This document shows, in pieces, positions 20,133 through 28,027 of a stretch of 64,000 nucleotides of DNA; position 1 is the stretch's first letter, and the number at the start of each line of letters is the position of its first letter. Under the pieces are notes generated by a model. The model saw only the letters and a list, made by a program, of their open reading frames with translations, ran no database searches and was not told the origin of the DNA. The stretch covers positions 99,031 through 163,030 of IMG/VR virus record IMGVR_UViG_3300035670_000019. One strand, written 5' to 3'. A program made the translations under genes and the position numbers. This DNA comes from a virus.

Positions 20133-21140
20133 ATGATATCAGATGATTTCCAAATTGGACCTAACGGTGCTTATGAGCATGTAGGTAATCAATTAGACAT
20201 ACAATACCAAGACCTACTAGAATATATTCTAGACAATGGTGTTGAGAAAAAAGATAGAACAGGTACTGGTACCTTATCAGTATTTGGACATCAGATTAGA
20301 CACAACATGCAAGATGGGTTTCCATTGCTTACAACAAAGAAGATGGCTTGGAAACAAATTGTGACTGAGTTGTTATGGTTTCTAAGAGGTGATACCAATA
20401 TCAAATTCTTACATGACAATGGATGTCATATATGGGATGGTGATTATGCTAAGTCAGGCAGGACAGATGGTGAACTAGGTCCAATCTATGGAAAGCAATG
20501 GAGAAATTGGCATACAGGTTGGGATGTAGTTACTGATAACAGTAAAGAGGCAGGTGTAAGAAGGGTTGAGTACGGAATAGACCAAATCGCAAACCTAATC
20601 TCTGAACTCAAAACAACCCCAGACTCAAGACGATTAATGGTTAATGCTTGGAATGTAGGTGAATTAGATCAAATGGTACTTCCACCTTGTCATTATGGAT
20701 TTCAAGTTTATACAAGAGAGTTAAGTTGGGAAGAGCAAGTTCAATGGGTAATGAAGAATACTAATATTGAATTAGAAAATCTCTATATTGTAGAAGAAAT
20801 TGCTAAACCATCTACTCCTAAACGAGCAATCTCTTTAATGTGGAATCAACGTTCAGTAGATACATTCTTAGGTTTACCATTCAACATTGCTTCTTACGGG
20901 TTGTTATTAGAAATTATTGCTAAAGAGGTTAATATGATGCCTGATGAATTGATTGGCAACTTAGGTGATGTTCATTTATACTCAAATCATATTGAACAGG
21001 CAAAAGAACAGATTAGTAGAACACCTTATGATTTGCCTAAATTAATAATAGAACATAGTAGTTTAGAACCAGTTGAATTAGTTTATAAATTAGAAAACTA
21101 TCAATCACACCCAACAATTAAAGCGCCTTTATCAAATTAA
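20133..21140 (+). CDS. thyA: Thymidylate synthase
   Basis: 335 residues. DRTGTGTLSVFG, FPLLTTKKM, LLWFLRGDTNIKFL and WDGDYA are ThyA blocks; catalytic Cys is C186 in PPCHYGFQ, followed by MWNQRSVDTFLGLPFNIASY. It methylates dUMP to dTMP with methylene-tetrahydrofolate, supplying dTTP for phage DNA. It is longer than the ~264-residue E. coli enzyme because of inserts around 130-160 and 196-228. The C-terminal tail (SHPTIKAPLSN) is repeated at the end of a small gene 0.5 kb downstream. Confidence 0.97.
   Translation: MISDDFQIGPNGAYEHVGNQLDIQYQDLLEYILDNGVEKKDRTGTGTLSVFGHQIRHNMQDGFPLLTTKKMAWKQIVTELLWFLRGDTNIKFLHDNGCHIWDGDYAKSGRTDGELGPIYGKQWRNWHTGWDVVTDNSKEAGVRRVEYGIDQIANLISELKTTPDSRRLMVNAWNVGELDQMVLPPCHYGFQVYTRELSWEEQVQWVMKNTNIELENLYIVEEIAKPSTPKRAISLMWNQRSVDTFLGLPFNIASYGLLLEIIAKEVNMMPDELIGNLGDVHLYSNHIEQAKEQISRTPYDLPKLIIEHSSLEPVELVYKLENYQSHPTIKAPLSN
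21102..21140 (+). repeat. 39-bp direct repeat, copy 1 (end of thyA)
   Basis: The last 39 bp of thyA including the stop. Copy 2 is at 21610-21648. The copies differ at four bases and encode the same residues; Ser is TCA here and AGT in copy 2. Confidence 0.85.
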
Positions 21141-21154
21141 GAAATTATATTAAT

Positions 21155-21370
21155 ATGAAACAGCTAGAAAAGTTAGTAGCACAAGGATATGAGGATTTAA
21201 CAATATCAAAACAAAACCTCATTAAACTTATTGATGAATATGGACATAATATACCATTACTTATTAATGATAGGAAAATATGGATTCACTTTACAGAATC
21301 TGATAAAATATTAATGGAATGTGATATAAGTGATGGAAGTGGTGTAGAATTAAATATTGAAGAAATATGA
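21155..21370 (+). CDS. Hypothetical protein, 71 aa
   Basis: First of two small genes between the two copies of the ThyA tail. Ends with an ATGA overlap. No family recognised. Confidence 0.55.
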   Translation: MKQLEKLVAQGYEDLTISKQNLIKLIDEYGHNIPLLINDRKIWIHFTESDKILMECDISDGSGVELNIEEI

Positions 21371-21648
21371 AATACAAAAAATTAACTAAAGAACAATTAG
21401 AAGAATATGAGAATAAAAAACTCACTTCAAAAGATATAATAGAAATGGAACAACGAGGTTTTAAAGTACCTTTAGCAGTAAAGTTACATAATTTAGAAAA
21501 AGGAGATAAAATAGAGTTTACTGAAGACATAATAAAAGATATGCTAAAATTTGCTATTGAAAGAGAGTATTATGAAAAAGCAGCATTATTGAAAACACAC
21601 TTAGACAATCAATCACACCCAACAATTAAAGCACCTTTAAGTAATTAA
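21367..21648 (+). CDS. 93-aa protein with ThyA-derived C-terminal tail
   Basis: The first ~80 residues are charged and helical, without a known family (EYENKKLTSKDIIEMEQRGF). The last 12 residues (QSHPTIKAPLSN) are identical to the end of ThyA, encoded with synonymous changes. The frame therefore looks like a fusion of an inserted gene to a spare thyA end. Confidence 0.6.
   Translation: MKYKKLTKEQLEEYENKKLTSKDIIEMEQRGFKVPLAVKLHNLEKGDKIEFTEDIIKDMLKFAIEREYYEKAALLKTHLDNQSHPTIKAPLSN
21610..21648 (+). repeat. 39-bp direct repeat, copy 2
   Basis: Matches 21102-21140 except at four bases, all silent or within the same Ser codon. In frame at the end of the 93-aa gene. Confidence 0.85.
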
Positions 21649-22332: not shown

Positions 22333-24618
22333 ATGAAAAAATTAATTTCCGTTCTGTTATTAACAGTTTTTTCTATCATAGGTTTCTCCCAAAACTTAGT
22401 TGAGAATGTTAATAACCAAGTAATCTTAAGATACAAGCAAGGTACTCCTTATAGACTTGTAGACGCATTCACTGAATTTTATAATGTTCCTGTAGTTGCT
22501 CAATATGATCAACTTGGAATGATTGTAGTACAATTCTCTGGTAACTATGATGATTTCTATAAGAGCTGTACTGACAGTGACTTATTTGACATTATCGAGC
22601 GAGATCAAGTTCAAGAAATGAAGATGGATTATATTCCAAATGATCCTGAATTTTCTTCTTGCTGGCATCTAAGACAATCAACTGATAAAGATATTGATGC
22701 TGATGAGGCTTGGGACTTGCTCCCAACTACCAATCAGTGGGTATCAGTTGCAATGTTTGATGGTGGTTTAGATATGACAATCCCTGACTTTGCAGGCAAC
22801 ATTGATAGCCCGTTTAACGCTGTTAATGGTACTAATGCTATTCCATATGTTAATTCATATGACAATCACGGTACTACTTGCTCAGGTACAATCGCCGCTA
22901 GAACTAATAATGGCATTGGTGTTAGTAGTGTAGGTAATAACTACGTTAGAGTTATGCCTGTTAACATCATGTCACAGGTTTATAGTGGTGGTAGTTTTAG
23001 TACAACATCTACCATTCAAATCGCGGCTGTTAATGCTGCTATGAATAATCCAAACTGTGTTGCTATTGCAATGTCATATGGTGGTAGTACATATTCAGCA
23101 GCTTTAGATGCTGCTTTCCAATCTGCTAGAATAAATGGTAGAGGCGGAAAAGGAATGATGGTATTTGCTTCTTCAGGCAATAATTACTCAGGAACCGCTG
23201 CTCAATACCCAGCCCAATATCCTGCAGTGTGGGGTGTAGGTGCAACAACAAGTTCAGATGTTAGAGCATCTTTCTCTAATTATGGTCAAATTTGTGATAT
23301 CTCAGCCCCAGGACAAGGTATTAGAACAATTGATAGACCAGGTGCTGATGGTTATGTGGCTGGTGATTACCATTCAATTAGTGGTACTTCCTTTAGTTGC
23401 CCTATCACAGCAGCTGCCTCCGCGGTTATTGCTTATAAAAACTGGGAATTGACTGATGATGAAATTTTACAAATTCTATCTTCAACTTGTGAAAAAGTAG
23501 GTGGTTATACTTATTCTAATGATCCTGCTTGGCCTTATAGTACCCGTAGTAATGAATTGGGTTATGGTCGTATCAATCTTAAAAACGCTGTTGTAGCCAC
23601 ACCAAACCCAGGTGGCCCACCACCACCACCTCCGACTATTGTATCTAACTACACTGTTAATAACATCATTGTATCTCCAGCAAGTGTTAACTTAGGAAGT
23701 ACTATTTTAGTAGACTACACTGCTCACGTTATGGAAGAAATTAACGTGTTGTCAACATTTGCTACTTTTGTAAAAGTACAATATCGTTACTCAACCAATC
23801 CTACTTTAGGTGATGCTGATGATATTATCATTGGCATTGATAGTGTTAGTTTAGGTGGTGGAATCAACTCAGTAACTAACTCATTCTCATATACAGTAGG
23901 TGGAACAGCAGGTACAAGATATATTTTTGTAACTATAAATTATGATAATGCAGTTGAGGAAACTATAACTACAGATAATACTAGTTTTAAAGCATTTAAT
24001 GTTATTAATCCTTCCTTTACTGGTACTGATGTTAGAATTGAATTAGTACAACCAGTAGCTAATCCTTGGACTACATCTTTACAAGTTGTCAACACACAAT
24101 GGAGAGCGGTTAATACAGGTACTGTTCCTATTACTCAAATTAATTATACTAGAGGATGGGTTGATTGTACAGCTGCTTTTGGATGTATTACTAATAACAC
24201 TTGGACAGGTAACTTACAACCAGGCCAATCAACACTACTACCAGCTAATAACTCTTACATAAGCATTAATCTATGCCATCCAATACGTTGTGCTGTACCA
24301 GTAGGCACTTCTAATACTTTTAGACTAAATGTAGTTAGTGTTAATGGATCAACTGGTGATGCTGATTTGACTAATAATAGATTAGATTTAGTATTTAATC
24401 GAATTAGTACAAGTCAAGAAGATATCATTGGTAACTATCCTTTAATAGATGATCCAAATTCTATTTACATTGAGGATGAGTTTCCTGTTTCTGTTGATAT
24501 TTATACCGTGACAGGCATGTTGTTGGATATCAATAGATACAATGAATTGCCTAGTGGAATCTATATTTTAAAAGCGAATTATTTAGACCGCTCTGAAACA
24601 TTTAAATGGGCTAAATAA
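22333..24618 (+). CDS. Secreted subtilisin-like protease with T9SS-type C-terminal domain
   Basis: 761 residues. Signal peptide 1-20 (ends GFSQ), a propeptide-like region ~22-100, then an S8 catalytic domain: D143 in VAMFDGG, H179 in YDNHGT, oxyanion N283 in SSGN, S353 in SGTSFSCP. A Pro-rich linker (~427-435) leads to beta domains (~438-690, CARDB-like), and the last ~68 residues resemble a type A T9SS sorting domain: VDIYTVTGMLLD, LPSGIYILKA, ETFKWAK. T9SS is specific to Bacteroidetes and releases or anchors proteins at the surface. In a phage this protease might shave receptors or assist release. Triad call is firm; T9SS routing is inferred. Confidence 0.88.
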   Translation: MKKLISVLLLTVFSIIGFSQNLVENVNNQVILRYKQGTPYRLVDAFTEFYNVPVVAQYDQLGMIVVQFSGNYDDFYKSCTDSDLFDIIERDQVQEMKMDYIPNDPEFSSCWHLRQSTDKDIDADEAWDLLPTTNQWVSVAMFDGGLDMTIPDFAGNIDSPFNAVNGTNAIPYVNSYDNHGTTCSGTIAARTNNGIGVSSVGNNYVRVMPVNIMSQVYSGGSFSTTSTIQIAAVNAAMNNPNCVAIAMSYGGSTYSAALDAAFQSARINGRGGKGMMVFASSGNNYSGTAAQYPAQYPAVWGVGATTSSDVRASFSNYGQICDISAPGQGIRTIDRPGADGYVAGDYHSISGTSFSCPITAAASAVIAYKNWELTDDEILQILSSTCEKVGGYTYSNDPAWPYSTRSNELGYGRINLKNAVVATPNPGGPPPPPPTIVSNYTVNNIIVSPASVNLGSTILVDYTAHVMEEINVLSTFATFVKVQYRYSTNPTLGDADDIIIGIDSVSLGGGINSVTNSFSYTVGGTAGTRYIFVTINYDNAVEETITTDNTSFKAFNVINPSFTGTDVRIELVQPVANPWTTSLQVVNTQWRAVNTGTVPITQINYTRGWVDCTAAFGCITNNTWTGNLQPGQSTLLPANNSYISINLCHPIRCAVPVGTSNTFRLNVVSVNGSTGDADLTNNRLDLVFNRISTSQEDIIGNYPLIDDPNSIYIEDEFPVSVDIYTVTGMLLDINRYNELPSGIYILKANYLDRSETFKWAK

Positions 24619-24683: not shown

Positions 24684-25055
24684 ATGAAACACTTATTTTT
24701 AGCTTTATTGCTAGCAATAGGTTTCGCTGCAAGTGCTCAGGTTGATGGAATGTTTGCTTTTACCCTTGATGGGGAACAAGATACTGTTTTTAGCATGTAT
24801 AATGTCTCCCCAGATATTAGAAATGAATTAAAAGATTATCTAATAGAAGCAATTCATGGATATGAAGTAATTGATGGTGGATGGATAATAGATTTACCTA
24901 ATAGTAACTCTAGGGTATTAGGTGATTTGTTTTTAATAGAAACCCACAATTGTGTTTTATTTGATTTTTATGTTGATGAAATAAAATACTCAGATGGTAC
25001 GAGTTACCAAGCTGAACGTTTTAAAAAACCTCTTAGAGTATTAAATAAATATTAA
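24684..25055 (+). CDS. Exported hypothetical protein, 123 aa
   Basis: Signal peptide MKHLFLALLLAIGFAASAQ, then a small acidic beta-rich domain. Follows the subtilase by 65 nt and may be coexported; family unknown. Confidence 0.65.
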   Translation: MKHLFLALLLAIGFAASAQVDGMFAFTLDGEQDTVFSMYNVSPDIRNELKDYLIEAIHGYEVIDGGWIIDLPNSNSRVLGDLFLIETHNCVLFDFYVDEIKYSDGTSYQAERFKKPLRVLNKY

Positions 25056-25086
25056 AGAATAATTTTGACATATTACTAAATTTTCA

Positions 25087-25503: not shown

Positions 25504-26067
25504 ATGAAAAAATTATTAATTTTAACTGCTATACTAGCAGTAGTGATTTGTATTGTTTCTTTTAGTAATAAAGAAACACCTGTTAAACTAAATTCCGCTC
25601 AACGACTGTACGCATCCATTATGACATATGCTAAACAGTACAATGTACCTTTACATGTTGCGTTTAATGTCGCTAGAATAGAGACTGGATATAAAGGTCC
25701 ATTTCATGATGATTATAATCATAAACAAACTTCAAGTGTTGGAGCGTTAGGTGCTATGCAGATTATGCCTCAATATGCCTCACATTATGCTGGTTTTAAA
25801 GTGAAAAAGCCGGTTTTAAAAGACAGCATTGAGTTGAACGTTAAGATATCTATGAGTATGCTTCGTGAGTGGTATAACCGTTATAACGACTGGGGTAAAG
25901 CCGCTGGTGCTTATAATACAGGTAGACCTGTCATGAATAATTATGCTCGTAATGCAATCAAGAAAAATTATATTGACTACTGGATTAAACCAGACTCAAC
26001 AGATGTTGTACCTGACACTCTAGCTTATTTATCCAGAGTAGATTTGGTAGCTTTCCTTAAAGATTAA
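25504..26067 (+). CDS. Lytic transglycosylase (SLT family), membrane or secreted
   Basis: 187 residues. N-terminal signal or anchor (LLILTAILAVVICIVSF), then an SLT domain: ARIETGY with catalytic E60, GALGAMQIMP (81-89), and AAGAYNTG (~133-140). It cleaves peptidoglycan glycan strands to anhydro-muropeptides. With the holin candidate and endopeptidase downstream it is part of a lysis cluster. Cleavage after residue ~21 or retention as a SAR-type anchor are both possible. Confidence 0.88.
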   Translation: MKKLLILTAILAVVICIVSFSNKETPVKLNSAQRLYASIMTYAKQYNVPLHVAFNVARIETGYKGPFHDDYNHKQTSSVGALGAMQIMPQYASHYAGFKVKKPVLKDSIELNVKISMSMLREWYNRYNDWGKAAGAYNTGRPVMNNYARNAIKKNYIDYWIKPDSTDVVPDTLAYLSRVDLVAFLKD

Positions 26068-26115
26068 TTTTGAAGTTTTAAAGAGCAATATTATATTTAA
26101 TTTAAACCTAAAGTT

Positions 26116-26451
26116 ATGATAAAAACAGTTGCAATTAAAGACAATTACGCAGTACAAATCGTTCCTGATGCATGGGACAAAAACATTAAAGTTTATTTAG
26201 TAGATGAAGTTAATGATGCTCAAACAACATTAGCCACTTGGCAAGGAGGAAGATGGATCTCAGACTCATATATGAACCTAAATAAATTCTTTGAAATTAT
26301 CAATATGTACCCCAAAGTTAAAAAATATCTTAAACAAACATATCAGTATTTAGAAACAAATGTTTATGAGGCTAACCTTAAAGTATGGTCTAAAACATTT
26401 GATTGTTTTAAGAGACGAGTTAAAATTAAAATTTACAGGGCGTTGAAATAA
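26116..26451 (+). CDS. Hypothetical protein, 111 aa
   Basis: Leader taaagttATG. Basic C-terminal half (WSKTFDCFKRRVKIKIYRALK). A hairpin covers its stop codon. No family recognised. Confidence 0.55.
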   Translation: MIKTVAIKDNYAVQIVPDAWDKNIKVYLVDEVNDAQTTLATWQGGRWISDSYMNLNKFFEIINMYPKVKKYLKQTYQYLETNVYEANLKVWSKTFDCFKRRVKIKIYRALK

Positions 26452-26460
26452 CGCCCTTTA
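26438..26460 (+). terminator. Terminator hairpin
   Basis: GGGCGTT, loop GAAAT, AACGCCC, then TTTATAAT. The tail runs straight into the TATTTATAA motif before 26484. Confidence 0.7.
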
Positions 26461-26461
26461 T

Positions 26462-26472
26462 AATATTTATAA
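26462..26472 (+). promoter_or_regulatory. AATATTTATAA candidate late promoter
   Basis: One mismatch to TATATTTATAA; 11 nt before the ATG at 26484 and directly after a terminator. Confidence 0.45.
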
Positions 26473-26483
26473 TAAATGTTACT

Positions 26484-26852
26484 ATGAAACGACTATTAAG
26501 ATGGCTTAAGTTATGGGATTTTGTTTGGAGTGTACCTCTAGCATTCGTTGGTTTTTTTGTTTATGGAATGGTTCAAGAAGAAGTATTTGGTGATCCAATG
26601 TACTCAACTGACTGGTTCCATAGAGCAATACTTGCTAGTTTAATCATGATTCTATTTAATGGAATTATTTTAGGTGGAATGTATTTTACATTCAAGGGTA
26701 TTTATAAGTACTTCTACTCCACAACATCAACTGTTAAAGAAGATTTTAAAGACCTACCCATATGGCTAAAACTATCATACTATCCTATTTGCTTCTTTTT
26801 ATACCTCTATATGCTTATACAGGTGTTCCGAGTGATAATTCCGATTGTCTAA
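26484..26852 (+). CDS. Small membrane protein, holin candidate
   Basis: 122 residues with three hydrophobic segments: VWSVPLAFVGFFVYGMV, ILASLIMILFNGIILGGMYF and YYPICFFLYLYMLIQVF. The start is basic (KRLLRWLK). Position between two peptidoglycan hydrolases and a 91-nt overlap with the endopeptidase gene make a holin the best guess; holins share no common sequence, so this rests on context. Confidence 0.55.
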   Translation: MKRLLRWLKLWDFVWSVPLAFVGFFVYGMVQEEVFGDPMYSTDWFHRAILASLIMILFNGIILGGMYFTFKGIYKYFYSTTSTVKEDFKDLPIWLKLSYYPICFFLYLYMLIQVFRVIIPIV

Positions 26853-27349
26853 GTGAATATAACTACAAAGCAGGTGTTGCTGTTCAAATAGCAGATAGCT
26901 TTGAAGGTATAAAAGAAATAGGTGACAATCAAGGATTTGACAATAAAAGCTTTGAGCGAATGATGCTTGAGGTTGGTTGGTGGAAAGGAGCAGCGTGGTG
27001 TGCTTTTTCACTTAAACTGATTTATAATCTAGCAGGTATAAAAACAACAGTTACAGGTTGGAGCCCAACAGCGTATAATAAAAAACATGTTATATTTACT
27101 GATGGTAAATTACTTGAACCAATTAAGCCAGGTGACTCAGGTACTTTATCATACGCTAAGTATAAAAACAATACAAAACGCTTTAAAGCAATAGGACATG
27201 CTTTTATTATTAAAAAAACAATAGGCAATTCAGCTGTAGTAACAGGTGAAGGTAATACAGATGGAAACGGAAGTAGAGAAGGAAATGGATTCTATGAGAA
27301 AATAAGACCGTTAAACGCAAATATACATATAACAAGATGGGACAAGTAA
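26762..27349 (+). CDS. CHAP-like peptidoglycan endopeptidase with signal peptide
   Basis: 195 residues. Signal peptide TIILSYLLLFIPLYAYT, then GAAWCAF (C80 nucleophile), AIGHAFII (H146) and VVTGEGNTDGNGSREGNGF (E163/N165), the order seen in CHAP and related amidases that cut the peptide part of peptidoglycan. The first 91 nt overlap the holin candidate in another frame; no later Met keeps the domain with a signal. Overlaps the next gene by 13 nt. Confidence 0.75.
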   Translation: MAKTIILSYLLLFIPLYAYTGVPSDNSDCLSEYNYKAGVAVQIADSFEGIKEIGDNQGFDNKSFERMMLEVGWWKGAAWCAFSLKLIYNLAGIKTTVTGWSPTAYNKKHVIFTDGKLLEPIKPGDSGTLSYAKYKNNTKRFKAIGHAFIIKKTIGNSAVVTGEGNTDGNGSREGNGFYEKIRPLNANIHITRWDK

Positions 27350-27717
27350 GATATGACAACATTGTAAAATGGGTTTTGATAGCAACTGTAGCTATATTCG
27401 CCATTGTTAAACTTAAAAACTGCAATAAACCAGCTTCTGATTTCACAGATGAAGAAATTGAATTATTGAATAGACAGAAAGACAGTTTAGATAAAGTAAC
27501 TAGAGAAATTTTAATTGAATACGATACCATTTATATGGATCGAATAGTAGAAACCAAAACCAAAAATAAAAAATCAAATGAAAAAGTTAAGCGTATTCCT
27601 ACTCTTACTGATCCTCAGCGTGACAGTGTATGGGCAAAGATTTTCAGCGCCAAGGATAGTCTACCAACTCGATACTGGGATCTTCTTGAACAGGAGTCAA
27701 GAAGAGAAAGTGATTGA
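27337..27717 (+). CDS. i-spanin-like inner-membrane protein
   Basis: 126 residues. A single N-terminal membrane helix (VKWVLIATVAIFAIVKL) followed by a charged helical periplasmic domain (LLNRQKDSLDKVTREILIEY). This is the layout of Rz-type i-spanins, which fuse inner and outer membranes at the end of lysis. An exported second gene begins inside it, as Rz1 does in Rz. Confidence 0.6.
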   Translation: MGQVRYDNIVKWVLIATVAIFAIVKLKNCNKPASDFTDEEIELLNRQKDSLDKVTREILIEYDTIYMDRIVETKTKNKKSNEKVKRIPTLTDPQRDSVWAKIFSAKDSLPTRYWDLLEQESRRESD

Positions 27718-28027
27718 AACTTTCTATTGGAAGAACATTTATAAAGAAAACTTGGACAGTATGTTCCTCCAAGCATATGACTGTCAATTATACCTTAAAA
27801 AACTAAGCCTTAACTATTCTGCTCTATCAGACAGTTATGTTCGTTTAGATGAAAAACATAAAGAATTAAGACGTGATTGTACTCTTGAATTAAGAGAAAA
27901 AGACGTTCAACTTGATCAAGCACAGATTAAATTGGATAGAGAGAATAATCGAAAACGCAATTGGCGAAGGGTAGCCTTAGTTGAGGGTGGGATAATTACA
28001 ACAATTATTTTAATACTAGTACTATAA
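27578..28027 (+). CDS. Exported spanin partner, nested start
   Basis: 149 residues, starting 140 nt inside the previous gene in another frame. Signal peptide KKLSVFLLLLILSVTVYGQ, then a coiled coil (~75-125) and a C-terminal hydrophobic end (VEGGIITTIILILVL). It has no lipobox Cys, so it is not a standard o-spanin; a protein with both a signal peptide and a C-terminal membrane helix resembles unimolecular spanins. The gene at 18916 has the same plan. Confidence 0.6.
   Translation: MKKLSVFLLLLILSVTVYGQRFSAPRIVYQLDTGIFLNRSQEEKVIETFYWKNIYKENLDSMFLQAYDCQLYLKKLSLNYSALSDSYVRLDEKHKELRRDCTLELREKDVQLDQAQIKLDRENNRKRNWRRVALVEGGIITTIILILVL

Follow-up and report, generated by a model that had tools for sequence, protein, structure and literature searches.

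The last 64 kb of the 163,030-base IMG/VR virus record IMGVR_UViG_3300035670_000019 (positions 99,031 to 163,030; herein the window, 64,000 nucleotides in length) carry a gene for a predicted secreted protease of the subtilase family, with a C-terminal tail that resembles part of the type A sorting domain of the type IX secretion system (T9SS). A sequence-only reading of the window had assigned this gene to a phage, and the assignment is borne out by the length of the virus record, its baseplate wedge genes and synteny across several virus contigs. The GC content of the window is 31%. Because the best cultured relative of its baseplate wedge protein is that of Flavobacterium phage vB_FspM_immuto (48.5% identity, full length), which is again the nearest neighbour for ThyA (51%), the host is most likely a Flavobacterium-type bacterium. 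The host of this nearest cultured phage relative is Flavobacterium sp. LMO8, and we refer to the lineage as a Flavobacterium-type myophage. Flavobacterium is a T9SS-bearing genus.

Peptidase S8 proteins are defined here by a PF00082 (Peptidase_S8) match and an Asp-His-Ser triad in DG, HGT and GTS contexts. The window protein has both, with PF00082 matching residues 137-393 (E 7e-30), and is on this basis a predicted S8 protease. The three catalytic residues and the oxyanion asparagine (Table 1) do not vary among 19 aligned phage proteins (45-100% identity to the window protein), in agreement with the complete triad originally proposed. The beta domains that had been described as joined to the protease are likewise seen, both in the sequence and in a structure model; one relative has a CARDB-like match in this region, with a weak score. 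The signal peptide, judged by eye, is kept in relatives, and residues 29-89 are predicted by the full-length structure model to follow the order beta-alpha-beta-beta-alpha-beta, which is that of I9 subtilase propeptides. Among PDB entries, mirolase (8ehe) is the best profile match to the whole protein, with E 8e-35.

Table 1. Position of the subtilase gene, its parts and neighbouring features in the window
Feature	Position	Strand	Basis or remark
Predicted secreted pro-subtilase with reduced T9SS type A-like tail	22333..24618	+	whole gene, 761 aa, open reading frame intact
Sec signal peptide MKKLISVLLLTVFSIIGFSQ, residues 1-20	22333..22392	+	sequence; cleavage site inferred by eye
Propeptide, residues 21-101	22393..22635	+	model secondary structure; I9 family assignment inferred
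S8 protease domain; catalytic D143, H179, S353, oxyanion N283	22636..23607	+	profile match, alignment
Hexaproline linker PPPPPP, residues 429-434	23617..23634	+	sequence
Two beta-rich domains, residues 436-558 and 559-692	23638..24408	+	sequence and model
Reduced T9SS type A-like tail, residues 711-761	24463..24615	+	TIGR04183 and profile comparisons
Last 22 residues PSGIYILKANYLDRSETFKWAK, with PxGxY motif and C-terminal lysines	24550..24615	+	sequence
Small exported protein, 123 aa	24684..25055	+	kept beside the subtilase in near relatives
Insertion site of the extra ~1.9 kb type A-tail gene of the nearest relatives	25040..25062	+	window has the empty version
Probable lysis cassette	25504..28027	+	profile matches and topology
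SLT transglycosylase	25504-26067	+	part of probable lysis cassette
Holin candidate with multiple transmembrane segments	26484-26852	+	role inferred from topology
Exported lysin-like protein	26762-27349	+	part of probable lysis cassette
Spanin-like overlapping pair	27337-27717, 27578-28027	+	role inferred from topology

The C-terminal tail and T9SS type A sorting domains

Due to its profile matches, its retained motifs and a low ratio of nonsynonymous to synonymous substitutions (dN/dS), the tail is very probably a reduced and conserved homologue of the C-terminal half of T9SS type A sorting domains. The cleanest test of this relationship is a search of 177,635 PDB sequences with a profile built from viral tails only, which gave a single match at E<=10, namely 8glk_D (E 0.001), the C-terminal domain (CTD) of NucA, present as a substrate in a T9SS complex. 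Comparison of the window-clade tails with bacterial tails by hhalign gave a probability of 96.8% (E 2e-10). With a hidden Markov model (HMM) built from 28 bacterial tails, the window tail scores 15.4 bits, a value reached by none of 20,000 composition-preserving shuffles (maximum 13.9 bits), and no other open reading frame (ORF) of the window scores above 4 bits. The tail is also the sole match in a TIGR04183 search of the virus record (18.4 bits, E 3.3e-4), aligning to positions 13-71 of 72 and ending at the last residue, and TIGR04183 is matched by eight of 19 phage relatives of the subtilase (best E 0.0012).

As in TIGR04183 and PF18962 domains, the tail has an I-Y-x-x-x-G strand, an L-P-S-G-I-Y hairpin and terminal lysines, and follows a predicted Sec-exported enzyme at the extreme C-terminus; alignment with bacterial tails indicates that the last two strands of the type A domain are retained. 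The two most conserved motifs of the CTD, PxGxYVV and KxxxK, are located in its last 22 residues, a segment that is reported to be enough for secretion in P. gingivalis (PMC5445135). In the window protein PSGIY is the exact start of the last 22 residues, which hold a PxGxYVV-type motif and terminal lysines, the latter spaced as KxxK and not KxxxK. These 22 residues are under strong purifying selection, with dN/dS against the nearest relatives of 0.07-0.14, similar to the protease core; dN/dS of the 47 residues 693-739 is 0.22-0.24.

Several observations weigh against taking the tail as a working T9SS signal. The match to TIGR04183 is statistically real but sub-threshold (15.5 bits against a curated cut-off of 23 bits, with a library-wide E of 0.013) and no PF18962 match was found in the window subtilase, because of which the tail, judged by its sequence, is not a canonical type A domain. 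The type A T9SS tail of the sequence-only reading, which had pointed to TIGR04183 for comparison, therefore holds as regards homology to the C-terminal half, but not as regards recognition by the curated profiles. The alignment with bacterial tails also shows that the YPNP strand, one hairpin and about 10 residues before LPSG are missing. In the full-length structure model the predicted local distance difference test (pLDDT) score of the tail is below 50, and this model was dropped as evidence on the tail, which it predicts too poorly. A separate tail model is better but biased, because its alignment included bacterial tails; it has three strands versus the seven-strand immunoglobulin-like sandwich of the CTD, is of low confidence without the bacterial rows, and its best fold match, 8glk_D, is weak (E 0.07). 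Lastly, in a sister phage clade (L009-L025 and others) the same protease and beta domains are followed by a diverged tail, mostly with GLN where the window clade has GxY. The profile of these sister-clade tails matches T9SS tails with 35% probability.

The low score and the missing PF18962 match are what would be expected if the tail were just another beta-hairpin domain, evolutionarily unrelated to T9SS signals. Such a chance resemblance is most improbable, given the shuffle test, the profile-profile match, the unique PDB match, the position of the tail exactly at the C-terminus and the T9SS tails carried by related phages.

T9SS cargo in related phages and bacteria

TIGR04183 tails above cut-off are present in some gene of nine of 19 related virus records, and type B tails (TIGR04131) above cut-off in seven of 17, while none of 14 control genomes was matched by TIGR04131. 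The type A and type B tails of the related records are backed by PF18962 and PF13585, respectively. The closest relatives, L001-L003, have subtilases 86-88% identical to that of the window, and carry, directly downstream of the small neighbour of the subtilase, a gene of ~637 aa whose type A tail scores 55 bits (PF18962, 51 bits). The corresponding site in the window is empty, with a clean junction at ~25050 and TTAAA at the junction. The near relatives' propeller-like protein with the type A tail was found in no cultured phage among those searched. Of the type B proteins, one of 550 aa lies upstream of thyA in L002 (L002:4053-5705; PF13585, 52 bits), and the others above the curated cut-off are in G004, G006, G010, G013, G015 and G017. 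A phage-borne PorP/SprF shuttle was found in none of 15 related records, which means that type B cargo would have to rely on a host shuttle. Among cultured phages, immuto itself encodes a cohesin-domain protein with a PF18962 type A tail (L131:3692-4423; MW353175 12691-13422), annotated merely as a cohesin domain-containing protein. Together this suggests that T9SS cargo is a recurrent and swappable class of phage genes, beyond the single case reported.

That case is the Cryophage described in 2020, with three variable genes for T9SS type A cargo (PMC7468147), and phage-encoded T9SS cargo is thus, as a general idea, not new; T9SS-domain proteins have also been noted in crAss-like phages. The Cryophage is similar in that its type A domains are found in a variable gene region and hijack of the host T9SS was proposed. 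It differs in that its cargo proteins (endoglucanase, GH39 and PA14) have recognised domains, whereas the window, which belongs to a Flavobacterium-type myophage lineage, encodes a predicted protease whose tail is reduced, and type A as well as type B cargo occurs in its relatives. New here are the protease, the reduced tail, the presence of both cargo classes in one lineage, and the cultured relative.

Among bacterial proteins, mirolase is a T9SS-exported protease of Tannerella (PMC5445135). Mirolase and the other KLIKK proteases of Tannerella forsythia share with the window protein a subtilisin-fold zymogen and a divergent T9SS C-terminal domain, but are bacterial, have a longer tail ending in KLIKK, and carry other accessory domains. 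Subtilases of Flavobacteriia and Saprospiria (L038-L077) have the same order of signal peptide, propeptide, S8 domain and T9SS tail, but are 24-39% identical, end in canonical YPNP tails and are not phage genes. A T9SS tail is found at the end of all Bacteroidota subtilase homologues examined. Homologues from bacterial phyla that do not belong to the T9SS-bearing groups all lack such a tail, and the match in a homologue from Neomarinimicrobiota is weaker. The S8 domain is also shared, with ~30% identity, by subtilases of Bacillus phages (SP-15, Goe3 and others), but the match covers the protease region only, without the beta domains or tail.

Export and possible function of the subtilase

The reading that we favour, with a probability of roughly 0.6, is that the subtilase is exported by the T9SS and acts outside the cell; export by the host T9SS, taken by itself, is marginally more probable. 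The protein would be made as a zymogen and exported by Sec to the periplasm, where its C-terminal beta-hairpin (PSGIYIL...KWAK) would be recognised by the host T9SS translocon and PorV shuttle, so that active subtilase would end up on the outer surface or in the medium. There it may cleave proteins on the surface of the infected cell itself. That such cleavage is its main role has somewhat less than an even chance. The most likely benefit would be the removal of T9SS-displayed surface proteins, e.g. gliding adhesins, which could reduce superinfection and keep progeny from being stuck to the dying cell. Surface-protein cleavage, a block on superinfection and release of progeny had all been suggested by the sequence-only reading, and any of them may apply. 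It has been proposed that phage receptors of Flavobacterium belong to the gliding machinery (PMC7345892), and gliding adhesins are T9SS cargo (PMC5445135), which would offer a concrete target for receptor removal. Recognition of the reduced tail, timing, substrate and benefit are the parts of this scheme that we infer.

Although the preferred reading is export by the T9SS, the sister clade keeps its subtilase with a diverged tail, which suggests that such export may not be needed for the job of the protease. In that clade an exported DNA/RNA non-specific endonuclease (PF01223, Endonuclease_NS) lies directly before the subtilase in 21 of 21 loci holding both (L009-L025 and L027-L030), and nuclease and protease are, from their predicted features, a conserved exported pair. 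No such nuclease was found in the virus record of the window. In the window, the subtilase gene is ~0.9 kb upstream of the probable lysis cassette (transglycosylase, holin candidate, lysin and spanin-like pair). The loss of GxY and the nuclease pair in the sister clade, in combination with this cassette, leave room for a role in lysis without the T9SS: a periplasmic zymogen, exported by Sec only, would be freed at lysis and digest proteins of the envelope and debris alongside the lysis enzymes, as would fit a constant neighbour that is also a digestive enzyme, and the tail would be a decayed or incidental remnant. We regard this as possible but rather doubtful, since the sole PDB relative of the tail is a T9SS signal. 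As a separate observation, two sister-clade subtilases are split by frameshifts (L023:7965-9779 and L028:4394-5242), which may be sequencing errors or pseudogenes.

Subtilase-like proteins occur in some phages, and beta domains of phages often decorate the virion, both of which would suit a part of the tail or fibres that breaks down surface proteins or capsule at entry. A virion-associated protease of this kind is nevertheless very unlikely. The window protein has a Sec signal peptide and a propeptide, its gene is away from the structural genes (baseplate genes from 52650 onward), and its PHROG match is phrog_3677 ("protease, other"), with no match to a structural PHROG.

If T9SS export and action outside the cell are correct, a lytic phage uses a secretion machine of its host during infection to put an active enzyme outside the cell, and Flavobacterium would allow a direct test of whether surface proteolysis brings about superinfection exclusion or virion release. 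The reduced tail would then represent a natural minimal type A signal. As a broader and tentative proposal, large Flavobacterium phages might carry a shifting repertoire of secreted proteins relying on both the type A and the type B signals of the host, plus a shortened type A signal on a surface-remodelling protease that cuts, for example, receptor adhesins.

Neighbouring genes

The small exported protein downstream of the subtilase was considered as a potempin-like inhibitor, or partner, of the protease; this has no sequence support and is kept as a lead only. Within the probable lysis cassette, the two spanin-like genes overlap in different frames, as i-spanin and o-spanin genes do. The second of the pair encodes a protein with a C-terminal membrane segment, unlike the usual o-spanin lipoprotein. 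Upstream of the subtilase, the C-terminus encoded by the ORF at 21367-21648 (DNQSHPTIKAPLSN) is near-identical to that of ThyA (20133-21140, ...YQSHPTIKAPLSN), and this ORF appears to be another gene onto which a short duplication of the 3' end of thyA has been joined.
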